23,725 nucleotides of DNA from Streptomyces lilacinus (GTDB lineage Bacteria > Actinomycetota > Actinomycetes > Streptomycetales > Streptomycetaceae). The notes beneath the pieces were generated by a model. That model worked only from the letters and a program-made list of their open reading frames with translations, was not told where the DNA came from and made no database searches. Where the stretch lies: the NCBI GenBank assembly GCA_000715685.1, contig KL569376.1, positions 33,610 to 57,334 of the forward strand. The letters are read 5' to 3'. Both the position numbers and the translations under genes were made by a program. Each line of letters starts with the position of its first letter. Position 1 is the stretch's first letter. Positions 3,467-23,407 of this stretch are shown here, piece after piece.

Positions 3467-3474
3467 CATGGGCC

Positions 3475-4479
3475 TCACGCCCCGCCGGCCGGGCCCTCCT
3501 TGTGGTGGCCCTCCTTGTGGTGGTCGAGGGCCAGGAGGGCGGCGCCGATCCACCCGGCTTCCGGGCCGAGGCGGGCCGGCTCGATGTCCGGGAGTTCGCG
3601 GTGGGCGGCGGCGGTGACGAAACGGCTGAAGCTCGAGCGGATGGGGGCCAGCAGGAGATCGCCGACTTCCGCGACGCCACCGCCGATGACCACCAGCTCG
3701 ATGTCGAAGAGGTTGACGAGCGTCGCGGCGCCGATGCCGAGCCAGTGGCCGAGGCGCTCGAGCTGGGCACATGCGGCCGGGTCTCCGGCGCGCGCCGCCG
3801 CCGAGACCGTTTCCCCGGTCACCCGATCGGGGCCGCCCGCGAGCGTGGCCAGCATCCCGTCGGGCTCGGCCGCGGCCGCCGCGCTGCCGTAGCGGCCGAG
3901 CGCCCGCCCGGAGGCCAGGGGTTCGAGGCAGCCGATGGTGCCGCAGCCGCAGCGCTCGCTGCCGTGGGGGTCGACGATCATGTGCCCGATCTCCATGGCG
4001 ATTCCCGTGCGGCCGCGGAAGAGACGATCGGCCAGGACGAGACCGCCGCCGACGCCGGTGCCCACGGTGACGAAGGCCATGTAGGCGGCGCTGTTTCCCA
4101 TGCGGTACTCCGCCCAGCAGGCGGCGTTGGCGTCGTTGTCGACGACGGTCGGCAGCCCGGTGGATTCCTCGAGCAGGTGCCGGAGCGGCACGTCACGGTA
4201 GGCATTGTTGGGAGCGGTCCGGATGCGGCCTTCGGGCCAGTGGACGAGGCCCGCCGCTCCCACGCCGACGGCGGCGATTCCGGGATGCCGGGAATGCAGT
4301 CCTTCGACGAGAACGGAAACGGCCTTCAAAGTGGCTGCCTGGTCGGCGGGGCTGGGCACGACCGGGACCCGTTCGACGACGTGGCCCTCCGCGTCGACCA
4401 CTCCCGCTGCGATCTTCGTGCCTCCGATGTCGAGTCCGATGGAGAGTCGACCGTCGTAGTCGTGGAATCGTGGGCGCAT
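3475..4479 (-). CDS. ROK-family sugar kinase (glucokinase-like)
   Basis: A 334-residue protein with every ROK kinase landmark: the ATP phosphate-binding motif GLDIGGTK (residues 15-22), the catalytic aspartate D116 in VDNDANAACWAE, VTVGTGVGGGLV, and the zinc site made by EIGH plus C177, C179 and C184 in CGCGTIGCLEPLASG. The family phosphorylates glucose, N-acetylglucosamine, N-acetylmannosamine and related sugars; the exact substrate cannot be read from motifs. It starts 12 bp after the upstream ROK gene, and the SD TAGGAG reuses that gene's stop codon, so the two are translationally linked. The C terminus carries an unusual HHKEG-HHKEG duplication coded by a 15-bp tandem repeat. Confidence 0.88.
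   Translation of the reverse strand: MRPRFHDYDGRLSIGLDIGGTKIAAGVVDAEGHVVERVPVVPSPADQAATLKAVSVLVEGLHSRHPGIAAVGVGAAGLVHWPEGRIRTAPNNAYRDVPLRHLLEESTGLPTVVDNDANAACWAEYRMGNSAAYMAFVTVGTGVGGGLVLADRLFRGRTGIAMEIGHMIVDPHGSERCGCGTIGCLEPLASGRALGRYGSAAAAAEPDGMLATLAGGPDRVTGETVSAAARAGDPAACAQLERLGHWLGIGAATLVNLFDIELVVIGGGVAEVGDLLLAPIRSSFSRFVTAAAHRELPDIEPARLGPEAGWIGAALLALDHHKEGHHKEGPAGGA
3494..3523. repeat. 15-bp perfect tandem duplication (HHKEG x2) at the kinase C terminus
   Basis: CCCTCCTTGTGGTGG occurs twice in direct tandem at 3494-3508 and 3509-3523, inside the last codons of the ROK kinase gene. It adds exactly five codons and keeps the frame. The second unit looks like a recent slippage product. Confidence 0.9.
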
Positions 4480-4491
4480 GGGGGCGTACTC

Positions 4492-5544
4492 CTACCGGGG
4501 TTGAAGCCGGACGCCGAAGCAACTCTGCAGAGCGATCAGCGCGGCGCCGTGCGCGCCACGGACGGCGTCCAGCGGTTTGGTGACGATGTGACAGTCCCTG
4601 CTGATGTGGAAGGTGTGCGCGGGGAATTTCCTCATCGCGTGGAGGAAGGCATTCGCCGCCCGGCGCCCGGGCCCGCCGTCGAGGAGATCCTCCGCCGCGT
4701 AGACCACCACATCGGTCGGTCCGAAGGTGGTGAGGAGCATGGCGATGCCACGGGCGATCGAGGTGCCGGCCTTGCGGAAGGCGGCCGCCGCCTCTCGCGC
4801 CTGTGCGTCGTTGCTGTCGGCGAGCGCGATCGCGGCCTCGAGTCCGTCGAGTTCCCGTCCGGTCCGTTCCTTGACCACGGCGGTCAGCGCACGGTTCCCC
4901 ACCTGGCTCTCGATGCACCCCCGCATCCCGCAATCGCAGATCCGGCCCCTCTGCCACACCTGGAGGTGCCCGAATTCCATCGGGACGGAAATCCGCTCGC
5001 CCCGTACGACCATTCCGGCCCCCACGCCGTCGCGGACGAGGATCACCCCGAACGTCGTGCTTCCGCGGCCCACACCGAGACTCTGCTCGTACGCCGCGAA
5101 GGCGTGGGCGTCGTTCTCCACCGACGTGGCGCAGCCCGTCATGGAGGCGAGTTCCGCACCGAGCGGGAAGTCCACCCACTCGTAGGGAGGAGGTTTTTCG
5201 TGCCGGTGGTCGTCGGGGCCGTTGACGAGGTGGAGCACCGTTCCCGTGTCCGGATCGACGGGGCCGCCCACCTGGACTCCCACGCACACCCTGCTTCTGG
5301 GAAACGCGCAGCCCAGTCTGTCGTCGACGAGATTTTTTGCCAGCTCGGCCACACGCTTCACCACCTCCCCGGACTCCATGACCGTGAGATGCCGACGGGA
5401 ACGTGCCATCACCACGCCGTCGGACCCGACAACGACCCCCGTGAGTTTGTACGGCTGGAGTTCGATGCCGACCGCGTAGTGCCCGTGGTCGAGCTCGTAC
5501 GAACGTCGGAGAACCTGCCGCACTTTCACGTCGTTCACGTTCAT
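4492..5544 (-). CDS. ROK-family protein lacking the DxGGT motif and any HTH
   Basis: A 350-residue ROK protein. It keeps the sugar-site residues (VGVQVGGPVDPDTG; VENDAHAFAAYE with D145) and the ROK zinc site (EFGH, then C203, C205 and C210 in CDCGMRGCIES). The N-terminal phosphate-binding motif DxGGT is replaced by GIELQPYKL, as in NagC/XylR-type ROK repressors rather than kinases. It also lacks the ~60-80-residue winged helix that such repressors carry; only about 20 residues precede the fold. It is therefore probably a sugar-sensing, non-kinase ROK protein, acting through a partner or as a stand-alone sensor. It follows the sigma-like gene by 40 nt and precedes the ROK kinase by 12 nt. The start ATG has AAGGTGG upstream. 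Confidence 0.8.
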   Translation of the reverse strand: MNVNDVKVRQVLRRSYELDHGHYAVGIELQPYKLTGVVVGSDGVVMARSRRHLTVMESGEVVKRVAELAKNLVDDRLGCAFPRSRVCVGVQVGGPVDPDTGTVLHLVNGPDDHRHEKPPPYEWVDFPLGAELASMTGCATSVENDAHAFAAYEQSLGVGRGSTTFGVILVRDGVGAGMVVRGERISVPMEFGHLQVWQRGRICDCGMRGCIESQVGNRALTAVVKERTGRELDGLEAAIALADSNDAQAREAAAAFRKAGTSIARGIAMLLTTFGPTDVVVYAAEDLLDGGPGRRAANAFLHAMRKFPAHTFHISRDCHIVTKPLDAVRGAHGAALIALQSCFGVRLQPR

Positions 5545-5584
5545 GTGCCACCTTGCGTCCAGTGGTGGGCTCGGGGAGAGAGGG

Positions 5585-6253
5585 TCAGGCTATTGATTCG
5601 GGGGCCACGGCCTCCGGGTATCGCTGGACCGCCGCACGGATGGCGATGGGCGTCAAAGTGACGATCTCGTCGGTGTCGCCCTCCCCGTCCTCGTCACGGG
5701 CCACGCGACGCAGTTCCTCCGCCTGCTCGGTGGTCGCGCAGTCCCACAGCACGCCGACGAGATCGGATGTGTCCGTGTCCTCGAATTCGTCGAAGGAGAC
5801 CCGCTCGGCCATGAGGTGACGGCCCCGATGGGCGTACGGGAGGTGCCGCACGCATTCGGTGAGGAACGCTGCCTTCAGTTCCGGCAGAGCCGCCTGCGGT
5901 TCCGGAACGGGTTGCCGCGCCTGGTCGCGGAAGCCGCTCAGCGCTCGCGCCGCCGTCTCCACCGCGAGCTCGTCGATGTCGTCTCGATGGAGACGCACTC
6001 CGGGGCGGCCGGCCGTCGCGATGGCCAACAGCCAGAGCTGGACGACGTGATAGCCGTAGGCGGCCCAGCCGGCCTGGGACTCGAAGTCGGGAGCCTGTAT
6101 AAGAGACAGGTCCGGGGAGAGCCGGCTCTCGACGTCGGCCCGGACGGTCCGAAGAAACCGTTCGAACGCCGGGTGCACGGACGGCGTGGTGTCTCTGGCG
6201 GTCTTCGGCTGGGCCCTGCGTGTGGCGATTCCTCGCTCATCCCTTGCGGACAC
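5585..6253 (-). CDS. Sigma-factor-like protein of unknown role (adapter-like sequence inside)
   Basis: A 222-residue protein starting at GTG 6253, with AAGGAGG five nt upstream and a 17-bp overlap with the ECF sigma gene. Residues about 85-125 (DIDELAVETAARALSGFRDQ, then a short loop and KAAFLTECVRHLPYAHR) resemble region 2 of divergent Streptomyces sigma-like proteins that carry a D-x-x-D-L-A-x-E-T-x-x-x-A-L motif. The C-terminal LTPIAIRAAVQRYPEA resembles a shortened recognition helix. A full region 4 is not visible. Residues 49-53 are coded by a 14-bp match to the Tn5/Nextera mosaic end (6096-6109), so the protein may be misassembled at that point even though the frame stays open. The role is unknown; its position suggests it modulates or cooperates with the ECF factor. 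Confidence 0.6.
   Translation of the reverse strand: MSARDERGIATRRAQPKTARDTTPSVHPAFERFLRTVRADVESRLSPDLSLIQAPDFESQAGWAAYGYHVVQLWLLAIATAGRPGVRLHRDDIDELAVETAARALSGFRDQARQPVPEPQAALPELKAAFLTECVRHLPYAHRGRHLMAERVSFDEFEDTDTSDLVGVLWDCATTEQAEELRRVARDEDGEGDTDEIVTLTPIAIRAAVQRYPEAVAPESIA
6096..6109 (+). other. Truncated Tn5/Nextera mosaic end (14 of 19 bp)
   Basis: TGTATAAGAGACAG is identical to the inner 14 bases of the mosaic end AGATGTGTATAAGAGACAG used in tagmentation libraries. In GC-rich DNA this AT-rich string is not expected by chance. It reads in the same direction as the second copy at 7123. It most likely marks untrimmed adapter at a contig join. Confidence 0.8.
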
Positions 6254-6779
6254 GCGAACCTCCTTCTTTTTCCTCGTAGTTCTCCAGCATGGTGCGCAGC
6301 GTGGCGAGAGCGTGCCGCAGATTGCTGCGGACGGTGCTCGCCTTCACGCCGAGAAGCGCGGCGATTTCCTGTGCGGAGTAGCCGTCCAGGTGCAGAGCCA
6401 GGACCTGTCCCTGCCGAGGAGGGAGACCGCGCAGAATCTCCAATACTTTTTGGTGCTCGTCCGGTTCGGCGCGATCCGCCGATACGGAGGCCGAAAGCCG
6501 TGCGTTCCGCGATTCCAGAGCCAACCGCTTGCGATTGCGTTCGGCCTTCTTGCAGTACGCGTGCCACGCCACCGTCCGGACCCAGCCCGCGGGGCTCTTG
6601 CAGTCCGGCCACATGCGCAGGAGCTCCTGCATGGCATCCTGTGTCGCGTCCTCGGCTTCCTCATAAGTCGCTCCGGCTCTCATGAGGCTATGAACGACTC
6701 GTGGATACTCCGCTGTAAAGAAAACGGCGAAACCCGGCAACTCGGCGGGTATGGCCCCGTGATCTCCTTGGGGGCTCAC
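6237..6779 (-). CDS. ECF-type RNA polymerase sigma factor
   Basis: A 180-residue ECF (group 4) sigma factor. Region 2 spans about residues 15-80 (FFTAEYPRVVHSLMRAGAT, EEAEDATQDAMQELLRMW, WVRTVAWHAYCKKAERNRKR). Region 4 spans about 115-165, with LRGLPPRQGQVLALHLDG, the helix-turn-helix SAQEIAALLGVKASTVRSNL, and RHALATLRTML. The start is GTG 6779 with AGGAGG seven nt upstream. Its stop overlaps the next gene, and two ROK-family genes follow, so it probably heads a four-gene unit. There is no adjacent anti-sigma gene with membrane segments; the 222-residue sigma-like protein is the only close partner. The whole gene lies between two adapter-like sequences, so its linkage to the flanks needs checking. 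Confidence 0.88.
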   Translation of the reverse strand: MSPQGDHGAIPAELPGFAVFFTAEYPRVVHSLMRAGATYEEAEDATQDAMQELLRMWPDCKSPAGWVRTVAWHAYCKKAERNRKRLALESRNARLSASVSADRAEPDEHQKVLEILRGLPPRQGQVLALHLDGYSAQEIAALLGVKASTVRSNLRHALATLRTMLENYEEKEGGSRVRKG

Positions 6780-6933
6780 GCAGCCACCTCCTCTGGGTCG
6801 GTCACACCCTTATAGGTCCGTGGGAGCGCGGCAGTGTGCAAAAGCCCGTCGGCGGCCCCTGCCCACGGCACTTGCACGCGAAGGGTGCCTTCCGCCCCTT
6901 CTTCGATAAAAGCCCGAGGAAGGTGAGGATTTG
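6780..6933. promoter_or_regulatory. Divergent promoter region (ECF sigma gene / small membrane protein)
   Basis: Read on the minus strand, TATAAG (about 6809-6814) is a good -10 candidate for the sigma operon. It would give a short leader before the AGGAGG at about 6787-6793. A clear -35 at 16-18 nt is not visible. On the plus strand GATAAA (6905-6910) precedes the strong AGGAAGGTGAGG of the small gene. Confidence 0.35.
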
Positions 6934-7119
6934 ATGAGGCGCAATACCGGCACACGCCACACCGACCACGCCGGCTCCACCGAGGTCGTGGTGCTCGTCA
7001 ACGGCGTGACGGCGAGCATCGGCGGCGCGTACCTGCTGACGTCATCGGTCCTGATCACCGTGCTGGCCGGAGTGGCGGCGGTCGCCGTGGCGGCCCTGCA
7101 CGTCATCTTCGGCTCGTGA
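6934..7119 (+). CDS. Small membrane protein, 61 residues, unknown function
   Basis: ATG 6934 is preceded by a purine-rich AGGAAGGTGAGG (6917-6928). The product starts with a polar, charged stretch of about 15 residues (MRRNTGTRHTDHAGST). It continues with two hydrophobic stretches, about residues 17-38 (VVLVNGVTASIGGAYLLTSS) and 39-58 (VLITVLAGVAAVAVAALHVI), consistent with a short helical hairpin in the membrane. I recognise no family. It is divergent from the ECF sigma gene, so it could belong to that regulon, but an adapter-like sequence begins four bases after its stop codon. Coding status rests on the ribosome-binding site and the membrane pattern. Confidence 0.6.
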   Translation: MRRNTGTRHTDHAGSTEVVVLVNGVTASIGGAYLLTSSVLITVLAGVAAVAVAALHVIFGS

Positions 7120-7122
7120 GCC

Positions 7123-7139
7123 ATGTGTATAAGAGACAG
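7123..7139 (+). other. Tn5/Nextera mosaic end (17 of 19 bp)
   Basis: ATGTGTATAAGAGACAG matches the 3' 17 bases of the 19-bp mosaic end exactly. It lies in the same orientation as the shorter copy at 6096-6109, so the pair does not look like the two inverted ends of a transposon. No 9-bp target duplication flanks it. It most likely marks residual sequencing adapter at an assembly join. Confidence 0.85.
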
Positions 7140-7177
7140 GCGCCACGACTGTGGCGGCACGCGGCGATCCTTCCTTC

Positions 7178-7528
7178 TCAGAACGTCTTCCAGCCCCCGC
7201 ACGACGAGATGTCACGACCGTCGTAGTTGCAGATGCGGGCCTTCCTCACGGGATACGCGAACCACTGCTCCTTGATCCCCTCGCCGTAGAACGCCTTGAT
7301 CCAACGAGGCTGGTCGTCCTCGTACGTTCTGACGTCGAGCGCCGCTCCTATGCCGTCGTTGCTCTGGTCCCAGATCGTCGCGAACCGGCCGTCCACGTAG
7401 CCCCAGTCGCACTTGCCGCGGGAGCAACTGGCCCACCGGGTCCCGGCGGCACTGGCCGGAACGGCGGTCAGCAGCACCGTCGCCGCGAGGAGAGGCCCGG
7501 CCGTCAGCGCCGCACGCCTGATCCGCAT
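7178..7528 (-). CDS. Small secreted Cys-containing protein, unknown function
   Basis: A 116-residue protein starting at ATG 7528 with AAAGGAG eight nt upstream. The signal peptide is clear: MRIRRAAL, a hydrophobic core TAGPLLAATVLLTAV, and a PASAAG cleavage region near residue 28. The mature part of about 88 residues is rich in Trp, Tyr and charged residues and has four cysteines (SCSRGKC, RIC, SSC), enough for two disulfides. No enzyme motif or family is recognised. It is divergent from the AraC-type gene. Roles such as an inhibitor, lectin-like protein or antimicrobial are possible, but nothing in the sequence singles one out. Confidence 0.7.
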   Translation of the reverse strand: MRIRRAALTAGPLLAATVLLTAVPASAAGTRWASCSRGKCDWGYVDGRFATIWDQSNDGIGAALDVRTYEDDQPRWIKAFYGEGIKEQWFAYPVRKARICNYDGRDISSCGGWKTF

Positions 7529-7732
7529 CACCCGATCTCCTTTCGCCATGTGCAGCTCAATCTGCTGAGGTGCGGTCACGAGTGTGCCCGCGCCCTCCTG
7601 CCGCGACATCGGCACACAGCGCAGACATCCTTGACATCGAGCGCACGACGGCGAGGCCAAGCCGCCGCAACCCGGCCAACCTGACCGGTACACGGCTTCC
7701 TCTCCGACCTCCCGCCCCGGCACCATCGGCCA
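7529..7732. promoter_or_regulatory. Divergent intergenic region (secreted protein / AraC regulator)
   Basis: A 204-bp spacer that must hold promoters in both directions. TTGACA at 7631-7636 is a good -35 for the plus direction, but no matching -10 follows at 16-19 nt. I see no strong dyad and no convincing ribosome-binding site before GTG 7733. Confidence 0.3.
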
Positions 7733-8812
7733 GTGCCCGATGCAGCCGAGGCAGCGCGAGAAGAACCGGTCCTGACCGTCTCCGCCGACATCCTGCCGCC
7801 GCCGGAACGGTTCTCGTGGTGGAACGAGCTGGTCAGGCGGCTCGTCGTACCCGTGTCGACCGCCTGCGAGCACGCCGACCGGTTCCGCGGGACCGCGACA
7901 GCCGTCACCCTCCCCGACACCCAGGTCGCGACCTTCTCCTTCACGCCCATGAGCGCCGGCCGCACCCTCGCCCACATCCGCGCCCACGACCCCGAGGACT
8001 ACTACCTCGTCCTGGCCCGAGTCGGCCTCATCACCCTCCAGCAGCGCCGCAACCACTGCGTCCTCGAGACCGGGGACATGGCGCTGTTCGACACCTCACA
8101 CCCCCTCACCTGCGAGTTCCGCGACCACGGCCGGCTCAGCGAACTCGTCCTCATGCGACTCCCCCGCGCCGCCCTCCCGTTCCCCGGCCACCGGGCCGAC
8201 CGGCTGCTGGCCACCGGCCTCCCCACCCCGACCGTCTCCGGCTCGCTCCTCGCCCACTTCATGGCCGGCCTGCCCGCGGACGCCTCCCTTTGCGGCCCGG
8301 CCGAACTCCGCCGGCTGGGATCCGTCGGACACGACCTGGCCCTCACCTTCCTCGCCGGCCGGCTCGACGCCCTCGACACCCTCCCGGCCGAGACCCGCCA
8401 CTCGGCCCTGCTCGTACGCGTCGACGCCTTCATCGACCGCAACCTCGGCGACCCGGACCTACGACCGGCCACCATCGCGGCCCACCACCACATCTCCGTA
8501 CGCCTGCTGCACCAGCTGTTCCGCGACCGGCCCGAGACCGTCGCCGCCGGCATCCGGCGCCGCCGCCTCGAGCGCTGCCACGCCGACCTCACCGACCCCC
8601 GCCTCCGGGACCGGACCGTCCACGAGACCGCCACCCGATGGGGCTTTCGGCACCCGTCGGACTTCAGTCGCGCCTTCCGCACCGCGTACGGAGCCTCCCC
8701 CAGCGATGTGAAGCGCACGGCACGCCGTGAAGGCACGGGCGCCGGTCCGCACCCACCGCCGCCTTCGCGTGCCGGCCCGATGCCGGGGCTTCGCCCAGCC
8801 GGCTGGTCGTGA
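7733..8812 (+). CDS. AraC-family transcriptional regulator
   Basis: A 359-residue regulator. Residues about 30-190 form an AraC-binding-like sensor domain (SWWNELVRRLVVPV, FSFTPMSAGRTLAHI, DYYLVLARVG, LETGDMALFDTSHPLTCEF). The C-terminal double helix-turn-helix follows: PATIAAHHHISVRLLHQLFR, then RTVHETATRWGFRHPSDFSRAFRTAYG with the usual P-S-D-V ending. The tail after about residue 330 is Pro-rich and disordered. The start is GTG 7733; no good ribosome-binding sequence is seen. The gene lies 60 bp upstream of a co-directional MFS transporter, a common arrangement for an efflux pump and its regulator, so control of that transporter is likely but inferred. Confidence 0.88.
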   Translation: MPDAAEAAREEPVLTVSADILPPPERFSWWNELVRRLVVPVSTACEHADRFRGTATAVTLPDTQVATFSFTPMSAGRTLAHIRAHDPEDYYLVLARVGLITLQQRRNHCVLETGDMALFDTSHPLTCEFRDHGRLSELVLMRLPRAALPFPGHRADRLLATGLPTPTVSGSLLAHFMAGLPADASLCGPAELRRLGSVGHDLALTFLAGRLDALDTLPAETRHSALLVRVDAFIDRNLGDPDLRPATIAAHHHISVRLLHQLFRDRPETVAAGIRRRRLERCHADLTDPRLRDRTVHETATRWGFRHPSDFSRAFRTAYGASPSDVKRTARREGTGAGPHPPPPSRAGPMPGLRPAGWS

Positions 8813-8872
8813 TCACTGACGCGAGCGGGGCGCGGGGCCGTCACCGGGCGTTCCTGATAGGCAGTCGCGGTG

Positions 8873-10105
8873 ATGAGCCGCCTCTCCACGCGACGACGGG
8901 ACGACGCCGGCTGTGACCGCTACGGCGACCGGCGCGGCCGGCCTTTCGCCGTGGCCGCCTACGCGTTCGCCGTCGTGATGTGCGGCACCACGCTGCCCAC
9001 TCCGCTCTACGGCTTGTACCAGCGAGAGTTGGGCTTCTCCTCGCTCATGGTGACGCTGATCTTCGCGGTCTACGCCGTCGGGGTCATCGTGGCACTGCTC
9101 CTTCTGGGGCAGCTGTCGGACTCCGTGGGCAGGCGACCGATCCTGCTGGCGGGGTTGGTGCTGTCGGCGATGAGCGCGCTGTGCTTCCTCTTCGGGCGCG
9201 GGCTGCCGGAGCTGTTCGTGGGGCGGGTGCTGTCGGGGCTGTCCGCCGGGCTGTTCACGGGGACCGCGACGGTCGCCGTGGTGGAGCTCGCCCCTCGGCG
9301 GTGGGCCGGAGCCGCCACGCTGGTCGCCACTGCGGCCAACATGGGCGGGCTGGGGAGCGGGCCGCTGCTCGCCGGCCTGCTGGCGCAGTACGTGCCGGAT
9401 CCGCTCCGGCAGGTGTTCGTCGTGGACCTGGCGCTCGTGGCGGCGGCCGTCGTCGGCGTGCTGCTGATCCCGGAAACGGTCCGGGACCGGCACGGTACGT
9501 CGCGTGGGCCCCGGCGGCTGCGCGTGCCGCGGTCGGTGCGCCCCGCCTTCGTGCCGGCGGCCATGGCCGGCTTCGCCGGGTTCGCCACTCTGGGGCTGTT
9601 CACGTCGGTGGCACCGAGCTTCCTGAGCGAGGTGGTGGGGGTGAGCGATCCGGCGGTGTCCGGCACGGTGGTCTTCGCGGTCTTCGCGGCGTCGACGGCC
9701 GGTCAGCTGCTGATGGGACGGGTCGGTGTCCGACGGGCGCTGCCGTGGGGGTGCGTGGTGCTCGTGGCGGGCATGGCGATGATCTCCGCGGCGCTGGTCA
9801 CGGCCTCCCTGCCGCTGTTGGTGGTGGGGGCGGTCACCGCCGGTGCGGGGCAGGGGCTGTCGTTCCGGGCCGGTGTCACGACGGTGGGCGAGCACAGCCC
9901 GGCCGAGCGGCGGGCGGAGGTGACGTCCGCGTTGTTCGTGGTGCTGTACGTGGCGATCTCGATTCCCGTGGTCGGTGTGGGCATGATGGCCGTCACGCTG
10001 GGGCTGCGGCAGGCGGGGCTGATCTTCAGCGGGTGCGTCGCGCTGCTGGCGGCCGCCACGGCGTCGCTGCTGGCCCTGCGGCGGATGCGAGGCGCCGGCG
10101 AGTAG
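8873..10105 (+). CDS. MFS drug-efflux-type transporter
   Basis: A 410-residue membrane protein with 12 predicted helices and no long central loop. The motif-A signature between helices 2 and 3 is present (GQLSDSVGRRPILLAG), as is the RVLSGLSAGLFTG region of helix 4. This fits the major facilitator superfamily, drug:proton antiporter type; the substrate is unknown. ATG 8873 follows an adjacent GTG at 8870; neither has a strong ribosome-binding sequence. It follows the AraC-type gene in the same direction and converges, with only 10 bp between stops, on the M28 peptidase gene. A short hairpin, GGCGCC at 10091-10096 and 10105-10110, spans its stop codon. Confidence 0.88.
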   Translation: MSRLSTRRRDDAGCDRYGDRRGRPFAVAAYAFAVVMCGTTLPTPLYGLYQRELGFSSLMVTLIFAVYAVGVIVALLLLGQLSDSVGRRPILLAGLVLSAMSALCFLFGRGLPELFVGRVLSGLSAGLFTGTATVAVVELAPRRWAGAATLVATAANMGGLGSGPLLAGLLAQYVPDPLRQVFVVDLALVAAAVVGVLLIPETVRDRHGTSRGPRRLRVPRSVRPAFVPAAMAGFAGFATLGLFTSVAPSFLSEVVGVSDPAVSGTVVFAVFAASTAGQLLMGRVGVRRALPWGCVVLVAGMAMISAALVTASLPLLVVGAVTAGAGQGLSFRAGVTTVGEHSPAERRAEVTSALFVVLYVAISIPVVGVGMMAVTLGLRQAGLIFSGCVALLAAATASLLALRRMRGAGE

Positions 10106-10115
10106 GCGCCCCGGT

Positions 10116-11603
10116 CTACCCCTGCGGTGCCACGTCGCGCCGACCCACGTTGTTGTCGAACCGGACCAGGAGGTCGGTGTCGAGCTCGCCCGGGTAGACG
10201 TCGGGAACGGAGTGGTCGGAGGGAGCCGACGCGATCGCGAGCAGGCGTTCGTGGTCCACGCTGTGAGGCGTCCACGCGAAGGGCCCGACGCGCACCGAGC
10301 CGCCGGCCGGAATCGCCTGATCGATCACCAGCGTGCCGATCGGCTGGAAGCGTGTCGGCCAGGTCGCCCCGGCGCCCGGGTCGCCCTGATACGTACGGAC
10401 CCGGGCGACGCCGCCTCCCAGAGCGGCCGTGCCGCGGTTGTGCACGCGTACGTACAGGAAGTTGGGAACGCCGTTGACGGGTGTTTGATGGCCGAGTTCG
10501 GGATCGTCGCCGGCGTTGATGTCGCTGTTGCGGACCCAGAGGTCGGGAGAGGCCCCGTTCGGGACCACGCTCGGCTGGGATCCGGTGTCGGCCTGGCTGT
10601 CCCTGATGTACAGGTCCACGGCCGAATGCGCTTCGTCGGCGACGTCCAGCGCTTCGGCGAGCAAGGTCGCCACTATCGTCTTGGTGACGGCGGCGAGATA
10701 GCCGTAGTCGAGCGTTGCCGGCTTGTCGGAGGTTTGGTGGTAGTGCGGGTTGCCCTCTCCCTCGAAGGCGCCGACCGTGACGTCGCTGTGCGCTTCGAAG
10801 GGCATGTAGTCGCTGGCGTAAATGGGGCCGAGTTTGACGGGTAGGGACGTGTAGGACGCGGCGGCCTGCGCCATCACCGCACCGAGGGCCTGCGAGGCGG
10901 CGTCATTGCTCGAGACGACATTGCCCTCGTCGCGCTCCACCGTCACGGAACCGTCCTCCGGCGGTCTGCCGACCATGTCCAGATTGATGACCCGGTAGAC
11001 GTCGGTGCCCGCGGCGTGGAGCTGCGCGGCGTACGCCGTGGATCCCCACAGTCCCTGTTCCTCTCCGGAGAAGGCCACGAAGCGGACCGTGGCGGAAAGA
11101 GCGACCGGCGCGAGCAGGCGCGCGATTTCCAGGATCGCCGCCACACCACTGCCGTTGTCGTCTGCTCCTGGAGCCCGTGCGGTCGCGTTGCCCAGGTCTT
11201 CCATTCGGCAGTCGTAATGGGCGCACACGATGATGACCGGATCGCCGCTTCCCGTCCCCGGCTTGGTGCAGACGACGTTGTCCCCGCTGTGACCGGCATG
11301 GGACCAGCTGCGCCTGACCACGTCCGTGTAGCCCGCCGCCGTGAACCGGTCCGATATCAGGGCGGCGGCCTCTGCGAGGTGCGGCGAGAACGTGTGCCGC
11401 GTGGGAAAGGCCGCGAGCGCCTCCACGATGTCGCGGAGAGCCTTCGCCGAGACCAATTCGACAAGGGTCGCGATGAACTTGTCCGGCAGCGTGCCGGTCC
11501 ATTTGCGTTTGGCCGGCGCGACCCGTACGGCCGGGCTCGGCGGTCGACGTTTGTCGGGTACGGGGAACGGCTGCCCCTCGTACGCGGTGTCAGGGGGCGA
11601 CAT
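10116..11603 (-). CDS. M28-family zinc aminopeptidase with a C-terminal non-catalytic domain, no signal peptide
   Basis: A 495-residue protein. Residues about 45-310 form an M28 peptidase with a complete two-zinc site by analogy with Streptomyces griseus aminopeptidase: H129 and D131 (AHYD), D149 (GADDNGSG), E181/E182 (SGEEQG), D209 (NLDMVG) and H289 (HYHQTSD). Residues about 329-495 are a separate domain beginning VDLYIRDSQADTG, containing DLWVRNSDI, YVRVHNRG and SVRVGPFAWTP, and ending near LVRFDNNVGRRDVAP. The upstream peptidase ends in a homologous domain. The N terminus (MSPPDTAYEGQPFPVPDKRR) is polar, with no Sec or Tat signal. ATG 11603 overlaps the upstream gene by 14 bp, so translation is coupled. 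Exopeptidase activity is expected; the compartment is uncertain. Confidence 0.88.
   Translation of the reverse strand: MSPPDTAYEGQPFPVPDKRRPPSPAVRVAPAKRKWTGTLPDKFIATLVELVSAKALRDIVEALAAFPTRHTFSPHLAEAAALISDRFTAAGYTDVVRRSWSHAGHSGDNVVCTKPGTGSGDPVIIVCAHYDCRMEDLGNATARAPGADDNGSGVAAILEIARLLAPVALSATVRFVAFSGEEQGLWGSTAYAAQLHAAGTDVYRVINLDMVGRPPEDGSVTVERDEGNVVSSNDAASQALGAVMAQAAASYTSLPVKLGPIYASDYMPFEAHSDVTVGAFEGEGNPHYHQTSDKPATLDYGYLAAVTKTIVATLLAEALDVADEAHSAVDLYIRDSQADTGSQPSVVPNGASPDLWVRNSDINAGDDPELGHQTPVNGVPNFLYVRVHNRGTAALGGGVARVRTYQGDPGAGATWPTRFQPIGTLVIDQAIPAGGSVRVGPFAWTPHSVDHERLLAIASAPSDHSVPDVYPGELDTDLLVRFDNNVGRRDVAPQG
10306..10365. repeat. Duplicated domain segment, copy 1 (in the M28 gene)
   Basis: These 60 bp match 11774-11833 at 55 of 60 positions by direct comparison. 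The match lies inside the C-terminal domain shared by the two peptidase genes. The high nucleotide identity points to recent duplication or gene conversion. Confidence 0.85.
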
Positions 11604-13791
11604 CGCGCAGTCCCACGTTGTTGTCGAACCGAACGATCCGTTCGGCGGGCACCGGTCCGTTGAGCGTGGCGGTGAGAGCCGGGTCGGGGGCGCCGTGCAC
11701 GACCGCTGCCAGGAATTCATGGTCCGCGAGGTGCGGCGTCCACGTCAGGGGGCCGACGCGCACCGAACCGTTGGCCGGAATCGCCTGGTCGATCACCAGC
11801 GTGCCGATCGACTGGAAGTGCGTCGGCCAGATCATCCCGGAGCCCTGGCCGCATCGGAAGACCTCGAGCTGGACCGCTCCACCCGCTGCCGCCTGGTTAC
11901 CCCGATTGTGGACGCGCACATACACGTGGTTCGGCTGGTCGTTGACGGGCGCCTGGTGCCCGAGGTCGGGATTGTCGCCCGTACTGATGTCGTTGTTGCG
12001 GACCCAGATGTCGGGAGAGTCCAACTGCGGGCGGGGGCTCGGCAGAGCCCCGGTGTCGGCCGGGTTGTCCGCGACGTAGACGTCAACGGGACGCCGCTTC
12101 CACAGCCCCTGGGCGATGAAGGCCTCGTCCATCACCTTGCTGAACAGGCCACCGGTGAGCGTCGTGTCCGCCGAGACGCAGCCCTGGGCCATGCTCCGGG
12201 CGTGCGCCGCGCTCGTGTCCTGCCTGTTCGGCACGATGAGCAGCATCTCCATCATCGTTTTGATCATGGCATCGGCCGCCTCGACCCGTTCGGCGGGATC
12301 GGACGAGTCACCGCCCATGCCCAGGTAGCACCGCCACAGTGCTGTGCCGAGCATCGAGTTGCGGAGGTTGAATTCGAAGGTGTTGAACTGCGCGTCGTCG
12401 AACCGCTCGGCGCGGTCGAGTCGCCGCACCTCGCTCCACTGGTTGGTGGCGTTGTTGTCGAAGGGGAACGTCTCGACGCGCCGGTGCCCGGCGGGATTGA
12501 ACCGGTCCCGGTAGATGGCGGGCAGGGCGTCGCAGACGCTGTGCTCGTACGACCCCGACCCGCCGTGGTCCGAGCCGAGCCATTGGAATACACCGTGGGT
12601 GTACTCATGGACGATGACACCGAAGTCGGCGGCATCCGGTGCGCCGCCCTCGCCGAAGCGGATCCGCGGCGGATTCGTCGTCCCGACCCACTCGCTGTTG
12701 TCGTCACCGTCGAGCGCCTGGGCGTCGACCTCGACCTTCTTCATGTTGGCGTTCAGCGTCGTGTTTCCCAGGCCGCGGAGGTAGCGAGCGGCGGAGTCGA
12801 GCCAGTAGTAGGCGTTCGCGCTCAGAAAGGCGCGGTTGATCGGGAACGTCCGGTAGGCGAAACTCGGCGCTGTTTCCTGCGGCTGCGCGAAGGTGGGGGT
12901 GTCCCAGTCCTTGCACTGGAACCACTGCCCGTCGAGTCGGAATTTCCCGCCGTCGGCAGGGGCGATCTCGGCTTCGACGTCATGGCGGAAGGCGTCGAGC
13001 GTTGCCGCGCTGGAGTCTCCGTGCAGCGTGCTGTCGTCCGATTCGGTCACCGGATCCGGCGAGAAGACCTTGAGGGTCGCCGTCACGTACTTGCCCGCGA
13101 GCGCGATCCACAGCAGCTCGCCGGACACGGCGTCCACGACGACGCGGAAGTGCTCGAAGGGCCCGGTGGTTTCCACCATGAAGTCCCGCACGAGATGCAG
13201 TGCGTCGTCGGGCTTCGTACCCTTCTGCAGCAGCGCGGTCGAGGCGCTGGGGTAGTCGGTGTGCGGCACGGTGGGCCTGGAGGTGTCCCGAATGTAGGCG
13301 AGTTCGTCCTTGGTCACCTCTGCGGCCTCGAATTCCCCGTCGAAAGGCGCGAGGGCAACCGCTTTGAGAGCGTCGAGGGCCTGGGCGGCGCCCGGATCGG
13401 GCGCATCCGTCATGTCGAGCTCTCCCCCGTGATCGACCTGAATGACGCTGGCCTGCTTGACGTCGGCCACGGCCTGCACGGTGGCGCCTGACACAGGGAC
13501 GTCGTTGTGGAACTGCTGGTAGCGGATCCTCAGCGTCGCCGCGCCTTCGCTCGATTCCACCTCGCGCAGATCGATGGTGCCGGCCTTCAGATCGCCCTTG
13601 CGCGCCTTCATGAACTGCTCGATGGCTTTCCGGGCAGTCGGCGCCCGCGTCAGCGTCGCTCCCGGATCGACGTATTTCCGCAGCACGCCCGCGTCGTCGG
13701 TGTGTTCCCCCACATCAGGGACCACCCTCAGAGGCTTCTCGACTTCGGGTCCGGGCTGGTTCCGCTGCTGGTCACCGTATTCCTGGGCCAT
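11590..13791 (-). CDS. Thermolysin/fungalysin-like metallopeptidase with FTP-type propeptide, no signal peptide
   Basis: A 733-residue protein. Residues about 70-125 resemble the FTP propeptide (LRIRYQQFHNDVPVSGATVQ), followed by a PepSY-like part (FRVVVDAVSGELLWIA). The gluzincin zinc site is H395-E396-x-x-H399 (VIVHEYTHGVFQWL). The third ligand is probably E416 in SYEHSVCDALPAIY, where the Glu-Asp spacing is one longer than in thermolysin. Residues about 568-733 form a C-terminal domain (VDVYVADNPADTG, DIWVRNNDI, YVRVHNRG, SVRVGPLTWTP) homologous to that of the next gene. ATG 13791 has an ideal GAGGAGG eight nt upstream, and the N terminus MAQEYGDQQRNQPG is clearly not a signal peptide. An upstream in-frame extension lacks a ribosome-binding site. 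Secreted relatives normally have signal peptides, so this is odd. Confidence 0.85.
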   Translation of the reverse strand: MAQEYGDQQRNQPGPEVEKPLRVVPDVGEHTDDAGVLRKYVDPGATLTRAPTARKAIEQFMKARKGDLKAGTIDLREVESSEGAATLRIRYQQFHNDVPVSGATVQAVADVKQASVIQVDHGGELDMTDAPDPGAAQALDALKAVALAPFDGEFEAAEVTKDELAYIRDTSRPTVPHTDYPSASTALLQKGTKPDDALHLVRDFMVETTGPFEHFRVVVDAVSGELLWIALAGKYVTATLKVFSPDPVTESDDSTLHGDSSAATLDAFRHDVEAEIAPADGGKFRLDGQWFQCKDWDTPTFAQPQETAPSFAYRTFPINRAFLSANAYYWLDSAARYLRGLGNTTLNANMKKVEVDAQALDGDDNSEWVGTTNPPRIRFGEGGAPDAADFGVIVHEYTHGVFQWLGSDHGGSGSYEHSVCDALPAIYRDRFNPAGHRRVETFPFDNNATNQWSEVRRLDRAERFDDAQFNTFEFNLRNSMLGTALWRCYLGMGGDSSDPAERVEAADAMIKTMMEMLLIVPNRQDTSAAHARSMAQGCVSADTTLTGGLFSKVMDEAFIAQGLWKRRPVDVYVADNPADTGALPSPRPQLDSPDIWVRNNDISTGDNPDLGHQAPVNDQPNHVYVRVHNRGNQAAAGGAVQLEVFRCGQGSGMIWPTHFQSIGTLVIDQAIPANGSVRVGPLTWTPHLADHEFLAAVVHGAPDPALTATLNGPVPAERIVRFDNNVGLRDVAP
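11774..11833. repeat. Duplicated domain segment, copy 2 (in the thermolysin-like gene)
   Basis: This is the counterpart of 10306-10365, with 55 of 60 identical positions. It codes for the stretch around SIGTLVIDQAIPANGSVRVG. Confidence 0.85.
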
Positions 13792-13978
13792 GATGAAGCC
13801 CTCCTCAACAAATGCGGAGGGGAGATTCGCTTTGATAAACACCCGAAAATATCGTAACTCTGCGCCGCCCTGCTCGCGCCTCAGCCACCGACGGCTCCAC
13901 CACGTCCTCGTCCCCCGCCAGGCCACTGCCGACAGCACCGTGCGGGCGGGACGCCCATAGGAACATAGGATCGCCCGC
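13792..13978. promoter_or_regulatory. Divergent promoter region (peptidase pair / SUKH-like gene)
   Basis: This region is locally AT-rich around 13820-13860, unlike its surroundings. On the minus strand TACGAT (13851-13856) is a -10 candidate for the peptidase pair. On the plus strand TAGGAT at 13966-13971 lies seven bases before GTG 13979, so the SUKH-like mRNA may be leaderless. Neither has a clear -35. Confidence 0.4.
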
Positions 13979-14896
13979 GTGACAGAGATCGACTACGGCC
14001 GTTTCCACGAGTGGCTGCGGGAAGCGCGGAATGCGACCGCGAGCGGCGCCGTGGAGGCAGATGCCCGATGGGAACTGCTGCGCCGGTTCCAGGAGGAGTG
14101 GGGGTACGAACCCACGGGCGGAGAGCGGTGGGAACGGGAGGACCCGGATGCCCACAAGGAGTACGTCGCCGGGCTGAGGACCGCCACGCAGTCCGACGTC
14201 TCGGCAGGCGACGAGCCCGACGACGTCGACCGCTCGCTCGCGATACCCGCCGCACTGGACGAGTGGTGGGACCTTCCGTTCAACTCCTTCGCCGACCGGT
14301 GGCGGCTCTACTGGACCAACCCCGTCTGGCCGCCCACCGTCCGTCCGGACCCCACCGGCTACGGCGTCGCCGACGGCCTGCCGCGGCACAACCCCTTTGT
14401 CGGCCCGGACGAGGACCGGCGGGTCTGCGTGTTCATGGCCGAGGACCAGTACTGCAACGAGTGGGGCTACCCCGCGGCCCGCGGCGGCCTCGCCGATCCG
14501 CCGGTGCTGGTCACCGCCCGGGACGACAACGAGCAACCGGCGTGGCTGCTCCAGAGCCACTCCCTCTCGGAGTTCTTCCTGCAGCTGGCCGTCACACGGT
14601 TGCCCGCCCACTACGGATGGACCGTCGAAGAAGCCGAAGCCACCGCGGAGGTCTTGGCCTGGGTGCGGGAGAACCTGCGTCCGATGGGCCTGCTGCCGTG
14701 GCGTGAGCTGGGCGCTCGTACGGAGTTCTTCGGCGGCCCGGACGTCATCGTGGCCCACAACACCGGCTACGGCGACTCCGAGCTCGTCGCGTACGGGCGC
14801 ACCGAGCAGGCACTGGAACGGCTGGCCGCCCGCCTCGGCGTCGACTGGTCGGAGTGGATCTGCGAGCCGGAGAGCCACCGCGACGAGGACGACTGA
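13979..14896 (+). CDS. SUKH (SMI1/KNR4)-like protein
   Basis: A 305-residue, acidic, Trp-rich soluble protein. IPAALDEWWDLPFNSF followed later by RRVCVFMAEDQYCNEWGY, then DPPVLVTARDDNEQPAWLLQ and SLSEFFLQLAV, follows the order seen in SUKH-fold proteins: helix with IP-x-x-x-x-E-W/Y, a strand with F-A-x-D/E-N-Q, a dPpV strand and a closing S-x-F-L/I helix. SUKH proteins are often immunity proteins for polymorphic toxins, but many are stand-alone. There is no signal peptide or membrane segment. GTG 13979 is probably the start of a leaderless mRNA. It diverges from the two-peptidase operon, which may be functionally linked. The family assignment is from pattern only. Confidence 0.55.
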   Translation: MTEIDYGRFHEWLREARNATASGAVEADARWELLRRFQEEWGYEPTGGERWEREDPDAHKEYVAGLRTATQSDVSAGDEPDDVDRSLAIPAALDEWWDLPFNSFADRWRLYWTNPVWPPTVRPDPTGYGVADGLPRHNPFVGPDEDRRVCVFMAEDQYCNEWGYPAARGGLADPPVLVTARDDNEQPAWLLQSHSLSEFFLQLAVTRLPAHYGWTVEEAEATAEVLAWVRENLRPMGLLPWRELGARTEFFGGPDVIVAHNTGYGDSELVAYGRTEQALERLAARLGVDWSEWICEPESHRDEDD

Positions 14897-15030
14897 GCCA
14901 CCTCCAGACCGGCTCAGCCGCATGTCGCAGGTGAGCCATGTCACGAGGCGCCCGAGAACCAGGGCTTTTGCCTGCTACGTCTCCCCGCCCAACACAGTCC
15001 GTGTCGGGAAACGAAGGAGAGAGAATCCCT

Positions 15031-15492
15031 GTGTCCTTTTCCGTGGCACTGAGCGTCGGCGTTCTCGGCTGTCTCGCCATCGCCGCAGTGACCTTCCTGC
15101 TGGGCCGTCCCCAGCGAAGATCACATCGTGTGTGCGCCGCCTTGGGGTGGCTGTGGGTGGCCGGTGTCGTGGGCCTGACGTTCGGTACGCGGTCGGGTGG
15201 CGGCCAGGCGGTGAACCTGATGCCGCTCGACGCTTCGAATCCCGCCAACACCTGGGATTTCTTCCTCAACGTGCTCATGTTCGTCCCCGGCGGCCTGCTC
15301 TTGGCCAGCGCGGGCACACGCCTCCTCGCAGCCGGTACGTACGGGTTCCTCGGCTCCCTCGCCATCGAGGTGACGCAGTACCTCACCAGTTCGGGACGAA
15401 CGGCCGACATCAACGACCTTCTGGCCAACACCCTCGGGTGCCTGATCGGTTACGCCTGTGTCGCGGCGGCGACCAGACGCTCACCGGCCTGA
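15031..15492 (+). CDS. VanZ-like membrane protein
   Basis: A 153-residue protein with about four to five membrane helices (SFSVALSVGVLGCLAIAAV, GWLWVAGVVGLTFG, FFLNVLMFVPGGLLLA, and the C-terminal LANTLGCLIGYACVAAA). The VanZ-family hallmarks are present: NLMPLD after the second helix, N-V-L-M-F-V-P-G-G in the third, and SLAIEVTQYLTSSGRTADINDLLANTLG. VanZ itself gives low-level teicoplanin resistance, but most actinobacterial members have unknown roles. I choose GTG 15031 because of the AAGGAGAGA just upstream (from 15014); an in-frame ATG at 14938 would add a non-hydrophobic 31-residue leader. It converges on the phosphotransferase gene. Confidence 0.85.
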   Translation: MSFSVALSVGVLGCLAIAAVTFLLGRPQRRSHRVCAALGWLWVAGVVGLTFGTRSGGGQAVNLMPLDASNPANTWDFFLNVLMFVPGGLLLASAGTRLLAAGTYGFLGSLAIEVTQYLTSSGRTADINDLLANTLGCLIGYACVAAATRRSPA

Positions 15493-15540
15493 CGGAGACC
15501 ACTGCCGGGGCCGCCCGCGACACAGCGCGGAATCGCGGAC

Positions 15541-16656
15541 TCAGGGTGCGCAGACCTCCTGTGAGCGGACCTCCTGTGCCGAGGCCTCTTCGCCGGCCTC
15601 GTCCAGCACCCTGGCGAGCAGGGCCACGCTCTGCGCGTAGGGGGTCCGCCCGCTCGGCCACTGGATGCCCGTGCTCGTCATCAAGCGCGTGACCCGGGAC
15701 GTGATCAGGCTGAACCGGAAGGCGGCGAAGACCTCGTAACAGGGGAAGTTCCGCAGCGGACGGCCGAGGAGGGAGGCGTAGGCCGCGATGGTCTCCTGCC
15801 GGCTCGGGAGGCCGGGGAGGCGTGGCAGGTCGAGGCCCTCGCTGAGGTAGCGGTCGGTGAAGAGGTACCAGGCCAGGTCGCCCTCCGGTGCGCCGAGCGC
15901 GGCCATCTCCCAGTCCAGGAGGGCGACCGGTGCGTGGCCCGAGTAGATGATGTTGCCGATGCGGGCGTCGCCCCACAGCAGCCGCGGCGGGCCGGGCTCT
16001 TCCGGGCAGTTGGCCCGCAGCCAGTGGACGGCGCGTGTGACGACGGGGTCGCCCTCGACTCCGTAGAACCCCAGATGAGCCAGGCACTCGCCGAACTGGC
16101 GGCGGATTCCGGCGGGGCCATGGGCCGGATCGTCCAGGAAGGACAGGTCCAGGGTGTCGGGGTCCAGGCGGTGGAGCCTCGCCATCAGCCGCAGACCGCC
16201 GTTCCATACCTGCGCGCGGTCGGCCGGGCGGAGTCGCGTCAGCCAGCCGGACCGGTGGTACGAGGGGATGTCCCCCGGCACCTGCCCGTCAATCCGCTCC
16301 ATGACGACGAAAGGGGCACCCAGGAGATCGCCGGTGGGTTCGCTGCCGTGGATCCTGGCCACGGGCACGTCGGTTCCGGCCAGCAGTTCCTGGACCCTGA
16401 CCTGGCGGCGCCACGGCGACTCGGGCAGCAGGCTGTGGGATGCCGGAGCCACCCTGATGGCCAGGCGCCGGACCAGGCGGCGGCCCTCCTGGTTCCACTT
16501 CGCGTCGCACAGGAGTGTCTCCCCGCTGAATCCCGTCTCCGCAGGAGTGCTCAGCGTGCCGATCGTGGGGGTCCCCTCTTCGGGGAACCGGTCGGCCAGC
16601 CATTGCGTGATCGCCTCGCGGGTGCGGGACGGATCACGCAACAGGGGTACGGACAT
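15541..16656 (-). CDS. APH/ACAD10-like phosphotransferase
   Basis: A 371-residue kinase-fold protein of the aminoglycoside phosphotransferase superfamily. The Brenner-type loop is LLWGDARIGNII, with catalytic D230 and N235; the usual His of HGD is Trp, as in the ACAD10/ACAD11-like branch. The Mg-binding D248 is in LLDWEMAALG. The N-lobe strand VVMERIDGQVPGD is also typical. Members phosphorylate small molecules such as hydroxyacyl derivatives or antibiotics, and the substrate here cannot be told. The start ATG has AAGGAA upstream. It lies 67 bp downstream of the secreted-protein gene on the same strand and may be co-transcribed. Its C terminus carries an imperfect five-residue duplication (QEVRS-QEVCA). 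Confidence 0.85.
   Translation of the reverse strand: MSVPLLRDPSRTREAITQWLADRFPEEGTPTIGTLSTPAETGFSGETLLCDAKWNQEGRRLVRRLAIRVAPASHSLLPESPWRRQVRVQELLAGTDVPVARIHGSEPTGDLLGAPFVVMERIDGQVPGDIPSYHRSGWLTRLRPADRAQVWNGGLRLMARLHRLDPDTLDLSFLDDPAHGPAGIRRQFGECLAHLGFYGVEGDPVVTRAVHWLRANCPEEPGPPRLLWGDARIGNIIYSGHAPVALLDWEMAALGAPEGDLAWYLFTDRYLSEGLDLPRLPGLPSRQETIAAYASLLGRPLRNFPCYEVFAAFRFSLITSRVTRLMTSTGIQWPSGRTPYAQSVALLARVLDEAGEEASAQEVRSQEVCAP
15553..15582. repeat. Imperfect 15-bp tandem duplication at the phosphotransferase C terminus
   Basis: Two adjacent 15-bp units at 15553-15567 and 15568-15582 share their first 11 bases (GACCTCCTGTG) and then diverge. They code for the QEV-x-x repeat just before the stop codon. 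Confidence 0.75.
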
Positions 16657-16723
16657 GCCTGTTCCTTGTCTGTTGCGCGCGGTCTGTTCAGCGGCCTGCC
16701 CGGCGTCGCCACCGTCACCACCG

Positions 16724-17260
16724 TCAGGTGATCGTGAGCGTCGTCACGCCGGTCGCCCCCGTGAACCCGGTGGAGAGGCATTGCAGGACCCCCGGCTGAG
16801 GAAGCGTGACGGTCTGCAGTGCGGTACGGCCCTGGAAGCGGCCTTGTGTGACAGTGCCGGTGATCGTGGTGACGACCTGGCCGGCCACGGCGGTGCTGCT
16901 GCCGGTGGCCTGGATGACACTGCTGTCGCCGGTGCTCCACTTGATGGTCCGCTGCTCCTCGAACCCGTCGAGGAGGTCGTTGCACCCGGCGAAGATCGTG
17001 AACCGCTCCCCGTACGAACCGCTCGTCACCTTGCCCGCGCTGTCGACGCAGGAGCCGAACCGCCCCTTGGTCGTGATCTCGATGTTCCGGGCGGCCAACG
17101 TAACACCGGGTCGGTAGGTGACGGACTCCGTTCCCACACACTGCACCTGCGCGGGTGAGGGTGCGTGTGCGTGGGCGGGACCCGCGGCCGGCACGGCCGT
17201 ACCGAGCACGGTGACGGCGGCCAGCGCCAGGGAACGCGTCCACGATCTGATGACGGCCAT
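16724..17260 (-). CDS. Secreted protein of unknown function
   Basis: A 178-residue protein starting at ATG 17260 with GAAGGAGA seven nt upstream. A standard signal peptide is present: MAVIRSWTR, hydrophobic SLALAAVTVLGTAVPAA, and cleavage near AHAHA at about residue 32. The mature part is Thr/Ser/Gly-rich with short alternating hydrophobic strands (TIKWSTGDSSVIQATGSS, VVTTITGTVTQGRFQG) and four cysteines (QCVG, SCVD, GCND, QCLS). This suggests a small disulfide-stabilised beta-sandwich. No catalytic motif is visible. Similar secreted proteins are, from memory, common and uncharacterised in Streptomyces. The phosphotransferase gene follows on the same strand. Confidence 0.75.
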   Translation of the reverse strand: MAVIRSWTRSLALAAVTVLGTAVPAAGPAHAHAPSPAQVQCVGTESVTYRPGVTLAARNIEITTKGRFGSCVDSAGKVTSGSYGERFTIFAGCNDLLDGFEEQRTIKWSTGDSSVIQATGSSTAVAGQVVTTITGTVTQGRFQGRTALQTVTLPQPGVLQCLSTGFTGATGVTTLTIT

Positions 17261-17323
17261 GCCCGGTCTCCTTCACGGGTGGGCGACGTGAGGTGTGCGA
17301 TGCAGCGATGCCCTGCTCGCGTG

Positions 17324-17344
17324 CCCGCGAGACCGGCTCGCGGG
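17324..17344. promoter_or_regulatory. Perfect inverted repeat between divergent genes
   Basis: CCCGCGAG (17324-17331), a 5-bp spacer and CTCGCGGG (17337-17344) form a perfect dyad. A further CTCGCG half-site lies at 17316-17321. It sits in the 264-bp spacer between the secreted-protein gene (minus) and the hydrolase gene (plus), and could be a regulator site. TAGTGT at 17475-17480 is a weak -10 candidate for the hydrolase. Nothing else stands out in this spacer. Confidence 0.45.
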
Positions 17345-17524
17345 AGTGACGGGAAGGCACGTACGGTCGCGGCGAGGCGCGCGTACACATGGGCACGCCC
17401 CGTCCCTGCGGGCAACCGCCCCACGGGCGACGCCCGAACGGCCAGGGGTGGTTCTCCCCAGGTCCTGCCGTCAGTAGTGTGGCCGTGACCCTCCGACGTC
17501 GTTCGGCTTCCGGCCTGGAGTGTG

Positions 17525-18376
17525 ATGGACGCCCTGGAGATCGGCACACTGGCGGTACCGGGTGCGCGGCTCCACTACGAAGTGCGCGGCGCCGGGCCGC
17601 TCCTGCTGCTCATCCCCGGCGGCAATTCCGACGCGGCCGTCTTCGAGCCCTTGGCCGCCGTCCTCTCCGCGGACCATCGCGTCGTCTCCTACGACCCGCG
17701 AGGCTACTCACGCACCGCGCTCGACGGCCCGCCGACGGATCAGCGGATCGAGGTGCACGCCGACGACGCGTACCGCCTGCTGGACCACCTGGCCGCCGCG
17801 GACGAGCCCGCGCAGGTGTTCGGCAGCTGCGCGGGCGGGATCGTCGCGCTCGAACTCGCGATGCGCCATCCGAGCCGGGTGCGCTCGGTGGTCTCACACG
17901 AACCGCCCACGATGGAGCTGCTTCCGGACGCCGCGCGGTACCGGGAGCTCGTCGACGATGCCCACGAGGTGTTCCGCCGCGAAGGCGTCGCGGCGGCCCT
18001 GCGGAAGCTCCAACCCCTCTTCGGCGGCCGGCCCGCGCCGGCGCTGCCGGAAGCACACGACAACAGCGCGTTTTTCCTGGCCCATGTGCTCCGGCCGTCC
18101 ACGCGCTTCGTCCCTGACCTCGCCGCGCTCGCGGCAGTGGCGGATCGGGTCGTCGTGGCCGGCGGTCATGGCTCACGCACGCACGTCATCCACCAGCCGG
18201 CACTCGTTCTCGCGAAGCGGCTCGGTCACGAACTGGCGGAGTTCCCCGGCGGTCACGTCGGCTACGCGAAACACCCTGTCGAATTCGCCGGGCGGCTCGT
18301 CGACGTACTGGCCGCCGCACCCCGCGACGATTCTCTCCGCACGACGACACGGGGGCTGAGGCCATGCGCATCGTGA
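17525..18376 (+). CDS. Alpha/beta-hydrolase fold protein with a Cys at the nucleophile position
   Basis: A 283-residue alpha/beta hydrolase. The oxyanion-region motif LLLIPGGNSDAAVFEPLA and the YDPRGYSRT strand-turn are typical. The nucleophile elbow, normally G-x-S-x-G, reads VFGSCAGGIVALELA, so residue 102 is Cys rather than Ser. A candidate catalytic His lies in FPGGHVGYAKHP near the C terminus. The acidic residue is not obvious. A Cys nucleophile suits dienelactone-hydrolase-like or acyl-transfer chemistry, or an inactive relative. ATG 17525 is used; GTG 17522 is adjacent, and GGAG lies at 17517-17520. The 3' end overlaps the next gene by 13 bp, so the two products probably act together. 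Confidence 0.82.
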   Translation: MDALEIGTLAVPGARLHYEVRGAGPLLLLIPGGNSDAAVFEPLAAVLSADHRVVSYDPRGYSRTALDGPPTDQRIEVHADDAYRLLDHLAAADEPAQVFGSCAGGIVALELAMRHPSRVRSVVSHEPPTMELLPDAARYRELVDDAHEVFRREGVAAALRKLQPLFGGRPAPALPEAHDNSAFFLAHVLRPSTRFVPDLAALAAVADRVVVAGGHGSRTHVIHQPALVLAKRLGHELAEFPGGHVGYAKHPVEFAGRLVDVLAAAPRDDSLRTTTRGLRPCAS

Positions 18377-19641: not shown

Positions 19642-19721
19642 CTCATCCTGCCTGCCCGTACGCGCCAGCGTCCTGTTCTCCACGATCCCGACTCTCGAAG
19701 GCGGGCACGGATCCTCGGGTT
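19642..19721. other. Convergent spacer with no clear terminator
   Basis: These 80 bp separate the stop codons of the glycosyltransferase-like gene and the TetR gene. I see only weak, widely spaced complementary strings (TGCCCG and CGGGCA) and no T tract, so I do not call a terminator. Confidence 0.3.
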
Positions 19722-20348: not shown

Positions 20349-20429
20349 CGGACGATGGTAACGCCATGCCGTGCATGACACCTAGCCGCACACTTGACAC
20401 CGAGTGACACGAACGGCAACGTGTGCCGC
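20349..20429. promoter_or_regulatory. TetR/SDR shared promoter with TGACAC repeats
   Basis: TTGACA at 20394-20399 is a perfect -35 for the SDR gene. CAACGT at 20417-20422, 17 bp on, is an acceptable -10 and would start transcription at about 20429-20430, the SDR start codon. TGACAC occurs three times in direct orientation at 20376, 20395 and 20405, two of them over the -35 and spacer, which makes them candidate operator half-sites. Confidence 0.5.
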
Positions 20430-21368: not shown

Positions 21369-21430
21369 CCGATCACTTCAACTGCCTTGAGACGTCGGCA
21401 AGTTGTTGGAGTTGATCACGGTTGACCGTT

Positions 21431-21459: not shown

Positions 21460-21484
21460 ACGACCATCATGGCGAAGGGAATCC

Positions 21485-22735: not shown

Positions 22736-22785
22736 CAGGGCAGGGAAAAGGCAGAAGGGCAAAGGGAAAGGTGAGAGGGCGGCGG

Positions 22786-23388: not shown

Positions 23389-23407
23389 ACGTCGGTCGGG
23401 GCCCCGG

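Follow-up and report, generated by a model that had tools for sequence, protein, structure and literature searches.

Two short strings in a contig of Streptomyces lilacinus (KL569376.1) agree with the last bases, on the 3' side, of the mosaic end (ME) of hyperactive Tn5, which is 19 bases long. They raise the question of whether a transposon has inserted at this locus, whether native sequence happens to resemble one of its ends, or whether sequencing adapter was left in the assembly. We addressed this question in the window, meaning the whole stretch of 23,725 nucleotides that was analysed, an ungapped piece of scaffold bounded by two N-gaps. It contains the following features.

5585-6253, minus strand: gene damaged by site 1, a 222-aa frame running through the adapter (from the frame and relatives)
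6096-6109, plus strand: site 1 adapter remnant, the last 14 of the 19 ME bases; TGTATAAGAGACAG
6110-7122, no strand assigned: genuine genomic block between the joins, collinear with L075, L076/L078, L079 and L080
6237-6779, minus strand: gene for an ECF-type RNA polymerase sigma factor, 180 aa, inside the block
6934-7119, plus strand: 61-aa hydrophobic reading frame (an open frame, with similar DNA in relatives)
7123-7139, plus strand: site 2 adapter remnant, the last 17 of the 19 ME bases; ATGTGTATAAGAGACAG

A preliminary description of this DNA had noted ME matches at these positions, 14 bases long at the first and 17 at the second, reading in the same direction. Both matches are exact, and both lie in direct orientation on the plus strand. 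When up to two mismatches were allowed, the 14-mer occurred twice in the window, exactly in both cases, whereas 100 dinucleotide shuffles averaged 0.03 matches and none of them reached two. The complete 19-mer, with up to three mismatches, matched the window once (7121-7139, two mismatches) and the shuffles not at all. Neither window site carries adaptor tail 5' of the ME, and neither has an N-gap: site 1 is a gapless contig join within a gene, and site 2 is a gapless join between genes.

The string recurs throughout the assembly to which the window belongs (7,558,468 bases, or 7.56 Mb, in 325 contigs; completeness 86.54). The exact ME 14-mer was found 861 times forward and 785 times in reverse, for a total of 1646 copies or approximately one per 4.6 kb, whereas the same 14-mer read backwards gave 0 + 0. 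Across 199 genomes of the genus, 23 hold the 14-mer if the window's own genome is counted; it is absent from 176 of the 198 others and present in 22, at 1 to 38 copies per contaminated genome, with the highest count (18 + 20) in G126. These counts indicate that the ME string is foreign to the genus and that the window's assembly is the most extreme among those searched.

The anatomy of the copies was studied in 18 stretches of the assembly plus the window (377,126 bases), a non-random sample drawn from the first ten contigs, with some stretches picked because the string was present. Ninety-one ME suffixes of at least 10 nt were recovered. Sixty-four have an N within 60 bases on their 5' side and thus lie just 3' of scaffold N-gaps; with two more at contig starts, 66 of the 91 are at a gap edge or contig start. 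One copy has N downstream only. The other 24, both window sites among them, are gapless with no N nearby, indicating that the gapless join is common in this assembly. Seen from the gaps, an ME-like piece lies no more than 60 bases away from 50 of the 107 N-runs in the sample. Longer adaptor pieces are also present: GCCATCAG followed by ME has 58 exact copies in the assembly, CCCGCTCAG followed by ME has 51, and contig C5 starts with GATCTACAC, then GCCTCCCTCGCGCCATCAG, then ME. We take the two tails to be the pair of adaptors supplied in the Epicentre Nextera kits, of which the first has an Illumina P5 end; tail and ME are printed together as a single string in published work. Together, the 1646 copies, the longer adaptor tails and the positions at gap edges and contig starts establish both the identity of the strings as adapter and the assembly-wide scale of the problem, bearing out the earlier reading of probable adapter left in the assembly. 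The related suggestion, of contigs joined after adapter had stayed on their left ends, fits the 66 copies at gaps or contig starts.

Base composition just downstream of the ME was tabulated as raw percentages for 90 sites. At base 1, G accounts for 52% of sites (background 35%) and T for 3% (background 15%); at base 9, C accounts for 47% (background 35%). As raw percentages, these lean in the direction of the Tn5 target preference. The eleventh base, which lies beyond the 9-bp Tn5 target, is G in 68% of these sites against a background of 35%. At three further places in the sample (L041:13886-13914, L042:11448-11474 and L046:13690-13718), two adapters stand head to head without an intervening N; each is a pair of adapter-bearing contig ends butted together.

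We compared the region with relatives to establish what belongs at site 1. A query of 5700-7121 (E <= 1e-20) matched 3 of 391 other genus genomes (G060, G258 and G351), which supply L078, L079 and L080, respectively; L075 (record title Streptosporangium nondiastaticum) and L076 (Streptomyces klenkii) were also used, and L076 and L078 were counted as one relative. The preliminary description had suspected that the block 6110-7122 might be misplaced and had proposed a check of synteny. On the left side this suspicion is contradicted: 3471-6092 and the block are collinear, with unchanged orientation, in all four relatives (3523-6090 in L080, the most distant at about 66-73% identity). This four-relative synteny establishes the left placement of the block and rules out its being misplaced relative to its left neighbour. 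Over approximately 2.65 kb, identity to the window is 84.2% for L075 and 84.3% for Streptomyces klenkii; L075 is as close as Streptomyces klenkii, and the genus given in the L075 record may be worth checking.

The ME string, whose presence at the same place in relatives would by the earlier account have spoken against adapter, is absent from site 1 in all four. In its place, 78, 80 and 82 bases separate the site 1 flanks in L079, L075 and L078. Once the window bases that do not align are deducted, the window lacks 77, 77 and 78 genuine bases by comparison with these three relatives, and the 14 adapter bases occupy the place of these approximately 77-78. Distant L080 gives 174 absent bases, but there 185 bases of the right flank fail to align. 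The loss that had been suspected at the joins is therefore established for site 1. The absent stretch is 77-82% G+C in L079, L075 and L078, and this high G+C content is a plausible cause of a gap in coverage.

The join has consequences for the gene that it interrupts. The net loss at site 1 is 63 bases, in frame, and the minus-strand gene remains open; the reading frame is kept across the join by luck. In the 222-aa protein, the residues LSLIQ, 14 of whose 15 codon bases are adapter-derived, replace 26 residues of the closest relative, L079, and the relatives have about 21 extra residues at this point. The 222-aa frame has no Pfam or NCBIfam family match. Within the block, the earlier call of an ECF sigma gene agrees with the profiles: Pfam Sigma70_r2 and Sigma70_r4_2 score above cut-off, as does TIGR02937, and residues 1-180, the full length, are matched in L075 and L076. 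The 61-aa frame stops 3 bases short of site 2.

Taken together, both strings are almost certainly untrimmed Nextera ME, presumably carried in by read-through contigs that were scaffolded or butted together, and thus an assembly error. The ME of the Tn5 tagmentation adaptors would have been left untrimmed in the reads, probably from an early Nextera kit, judging by the adaptor tails. Where an insert was short, reads could then have run on into the adaptor at its far end, letting the assembler extend contig ends into adaptor sequence. Read-pair scaffolding would have ordered such contigs, mostly with N-gaps and at times by gapless butting, the step that presumably acted at both window sites; site 2 would be a join of the same kind, between two genes.

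A real Tn5 or mini-Tn5 insertion at each site, or its remnant, would account for the string itself, as this is the hyperactive Tn5 mosaic end, and one other sampled join (L041:6463-6480) does bear a flanking direct repeat of 7 bases. However, when the 9-base flanks of each window site are compared, 2 of 9 positions are identical at one site and 3 of 9 at the other, in keeping with the 9-bp duplication having been found missing earlier. The two ends are direct, not inverted, and, as had also been remarked, there is no transposase or marker between them, where the ECF sigma gene and the 61-aa frame lie instead. Moreover, site 1 has bases lost, not gained, and a transposon would have to be reconciled with 1646 copies in a single assembly and with the adaptor tails. 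A natural transposon, which the preliminary description had already thought unlikely, is ruled out by the number of copies, the adaptor tails, the loss of bases and the lack of a 9-bp duplication, and we regard Tn5 insertion here as having virtually no probability. Still less credible is native sequence that resembles the ME by chance. Two exact occurrences stand against 0.03 expected in the window even at up to two mismatches, the assembly-wide copies stand against none for the read-backwards control, and the relatives hold different sequence at site 1.

The comparison with relatives also covered other gapless joins of the sample. The 24 gapless ME matches make up 21 joins, three of which are the head-to-head pairs. 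Nine of the 21 were compared with relatives (both window sites and seven in L041 and L042), and seven of these could be placed, the exceptions being window site 2 and L041:13886-13914. Six placed joins lack bases: 77-78 (window site 1), 21, 40, 67-91, 69 and 41, where alternative pairings of the alignment pieces would give 149 instead of 21 and 92 instead of 41. With about 21 to 91 bases absent from these six, site 1 is within the usual range for the assembly. At the seventh, L041:6463-6480, 7 bases are repeated and none are missing; the direct repeat CCGTCAG flanks the ME and is present as a single copy in two relatives, probably reflecting contigs that overlapped by 7 bases. Simple scaling of 21 joins per 377 kb in this non-random sample suggests that there may be approximately 400 gapless joins assembly-wide.

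Site 2 raises a further possibility, namely that the strings are adapter and that the contig order is also wrong, so that sequence from 7140 onward is not the chromosomal neighbour of the block. Likeness to relatives stops at 7092-7121, before the site, and both flanks of site 2 occur together in no relative examined. The right flank (7140-7760; E <= 1e-15) matched only its own genome among 392 of the genus and none of the 391 others. When 7140-23725 was compared with G258, G060 and G351, and 7140-17000 with the genome of L075, position 7140 was nowhere placed beside the block. In G258, the block is followed by 19 bases and then by a homologue of window 15581-16686 in the same orientation, with nothing resembling 7140-15580 between them. 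That missing stretch, the absence of 7140-7760 from the other genus genomes and the scatter of other parts of 7140-23725 in G258 all favor a misordering at site 2. Yet what neighbours the block in G258 is also present, with matching orientation, on the contig that lies right of site 2, 8.4 kb further on; this suits a correct neighbourhood with an insertion, although a misjoin is compatible too. In addition, other relatives carry yet different sequence after the small gene, suggesting that this spot is naturally variable. On balance we consider misordering at site 2 rather unlikely, at a level that still calls for checking before the gene order over this site is used.

Matches to 7140-23725 in G258 fall on C6 near 0.84, 1.50, 1.52 and 1.68 Mb, on C1 near 0.07 Mb and on C12 near 0.05 Mb. 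The gene order of this part of the window is thus far from that of the closest relative, whether by nature or by misassembly. The same region contains a 782-aa frame (11590-13938, minus strand) that gave no NCBIfam match; it includes the stretch HEYTH, which we take to be of the kind seen in zinc metalloproteases.

Errors of this type are already known, and the window's assembly is a heavily affected case. Moeller et al. (2024; PMC11536531) describe adapter contamination of public microbial genomes for TruSeq, with as many as 805 adapter copies in one assembly. As in that study, adapter lies inside a published assembly, is concentrated at contig ends and adjoins longer adaptor pieces. That study screened with a TruSeq 12-mer and makes no mention of the word Nextera in its main text, whereas the string here is the Tn5 mosaic end. 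A second difference is that scaffolding has made copies internal here, some of them gapless and inside genes. The A5 pipeline paper (2012; PMC3441570) concerns Illumina libraries prepared with Tn5, roughly as old as we infer this one to be, with uneven coverage. There, Epicentre Nextera adapters were screened out before assembly; here, the adapter stayed in.

Where remnants are internal, gapless and sometimes in frame, proteins gain adapter residues and lose genuine ones, and a screen of contig ends would probably miss them. Any novelty of the present case would be confined to data quality. No biological reading of 6090-6110 or 7120-7140 is warranted, the 222-aa protein encoded at 5585-6253 is not usable in its present form, and we flag the assembly for heavy adapter contamination. 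Finally, among the matches listed for the other genus genomes, all plus-strand copies begin at contig base 119 or earlier; with 22 of 198 of these genomes holding the string, milder adapter contamination appears to be common in the genus.
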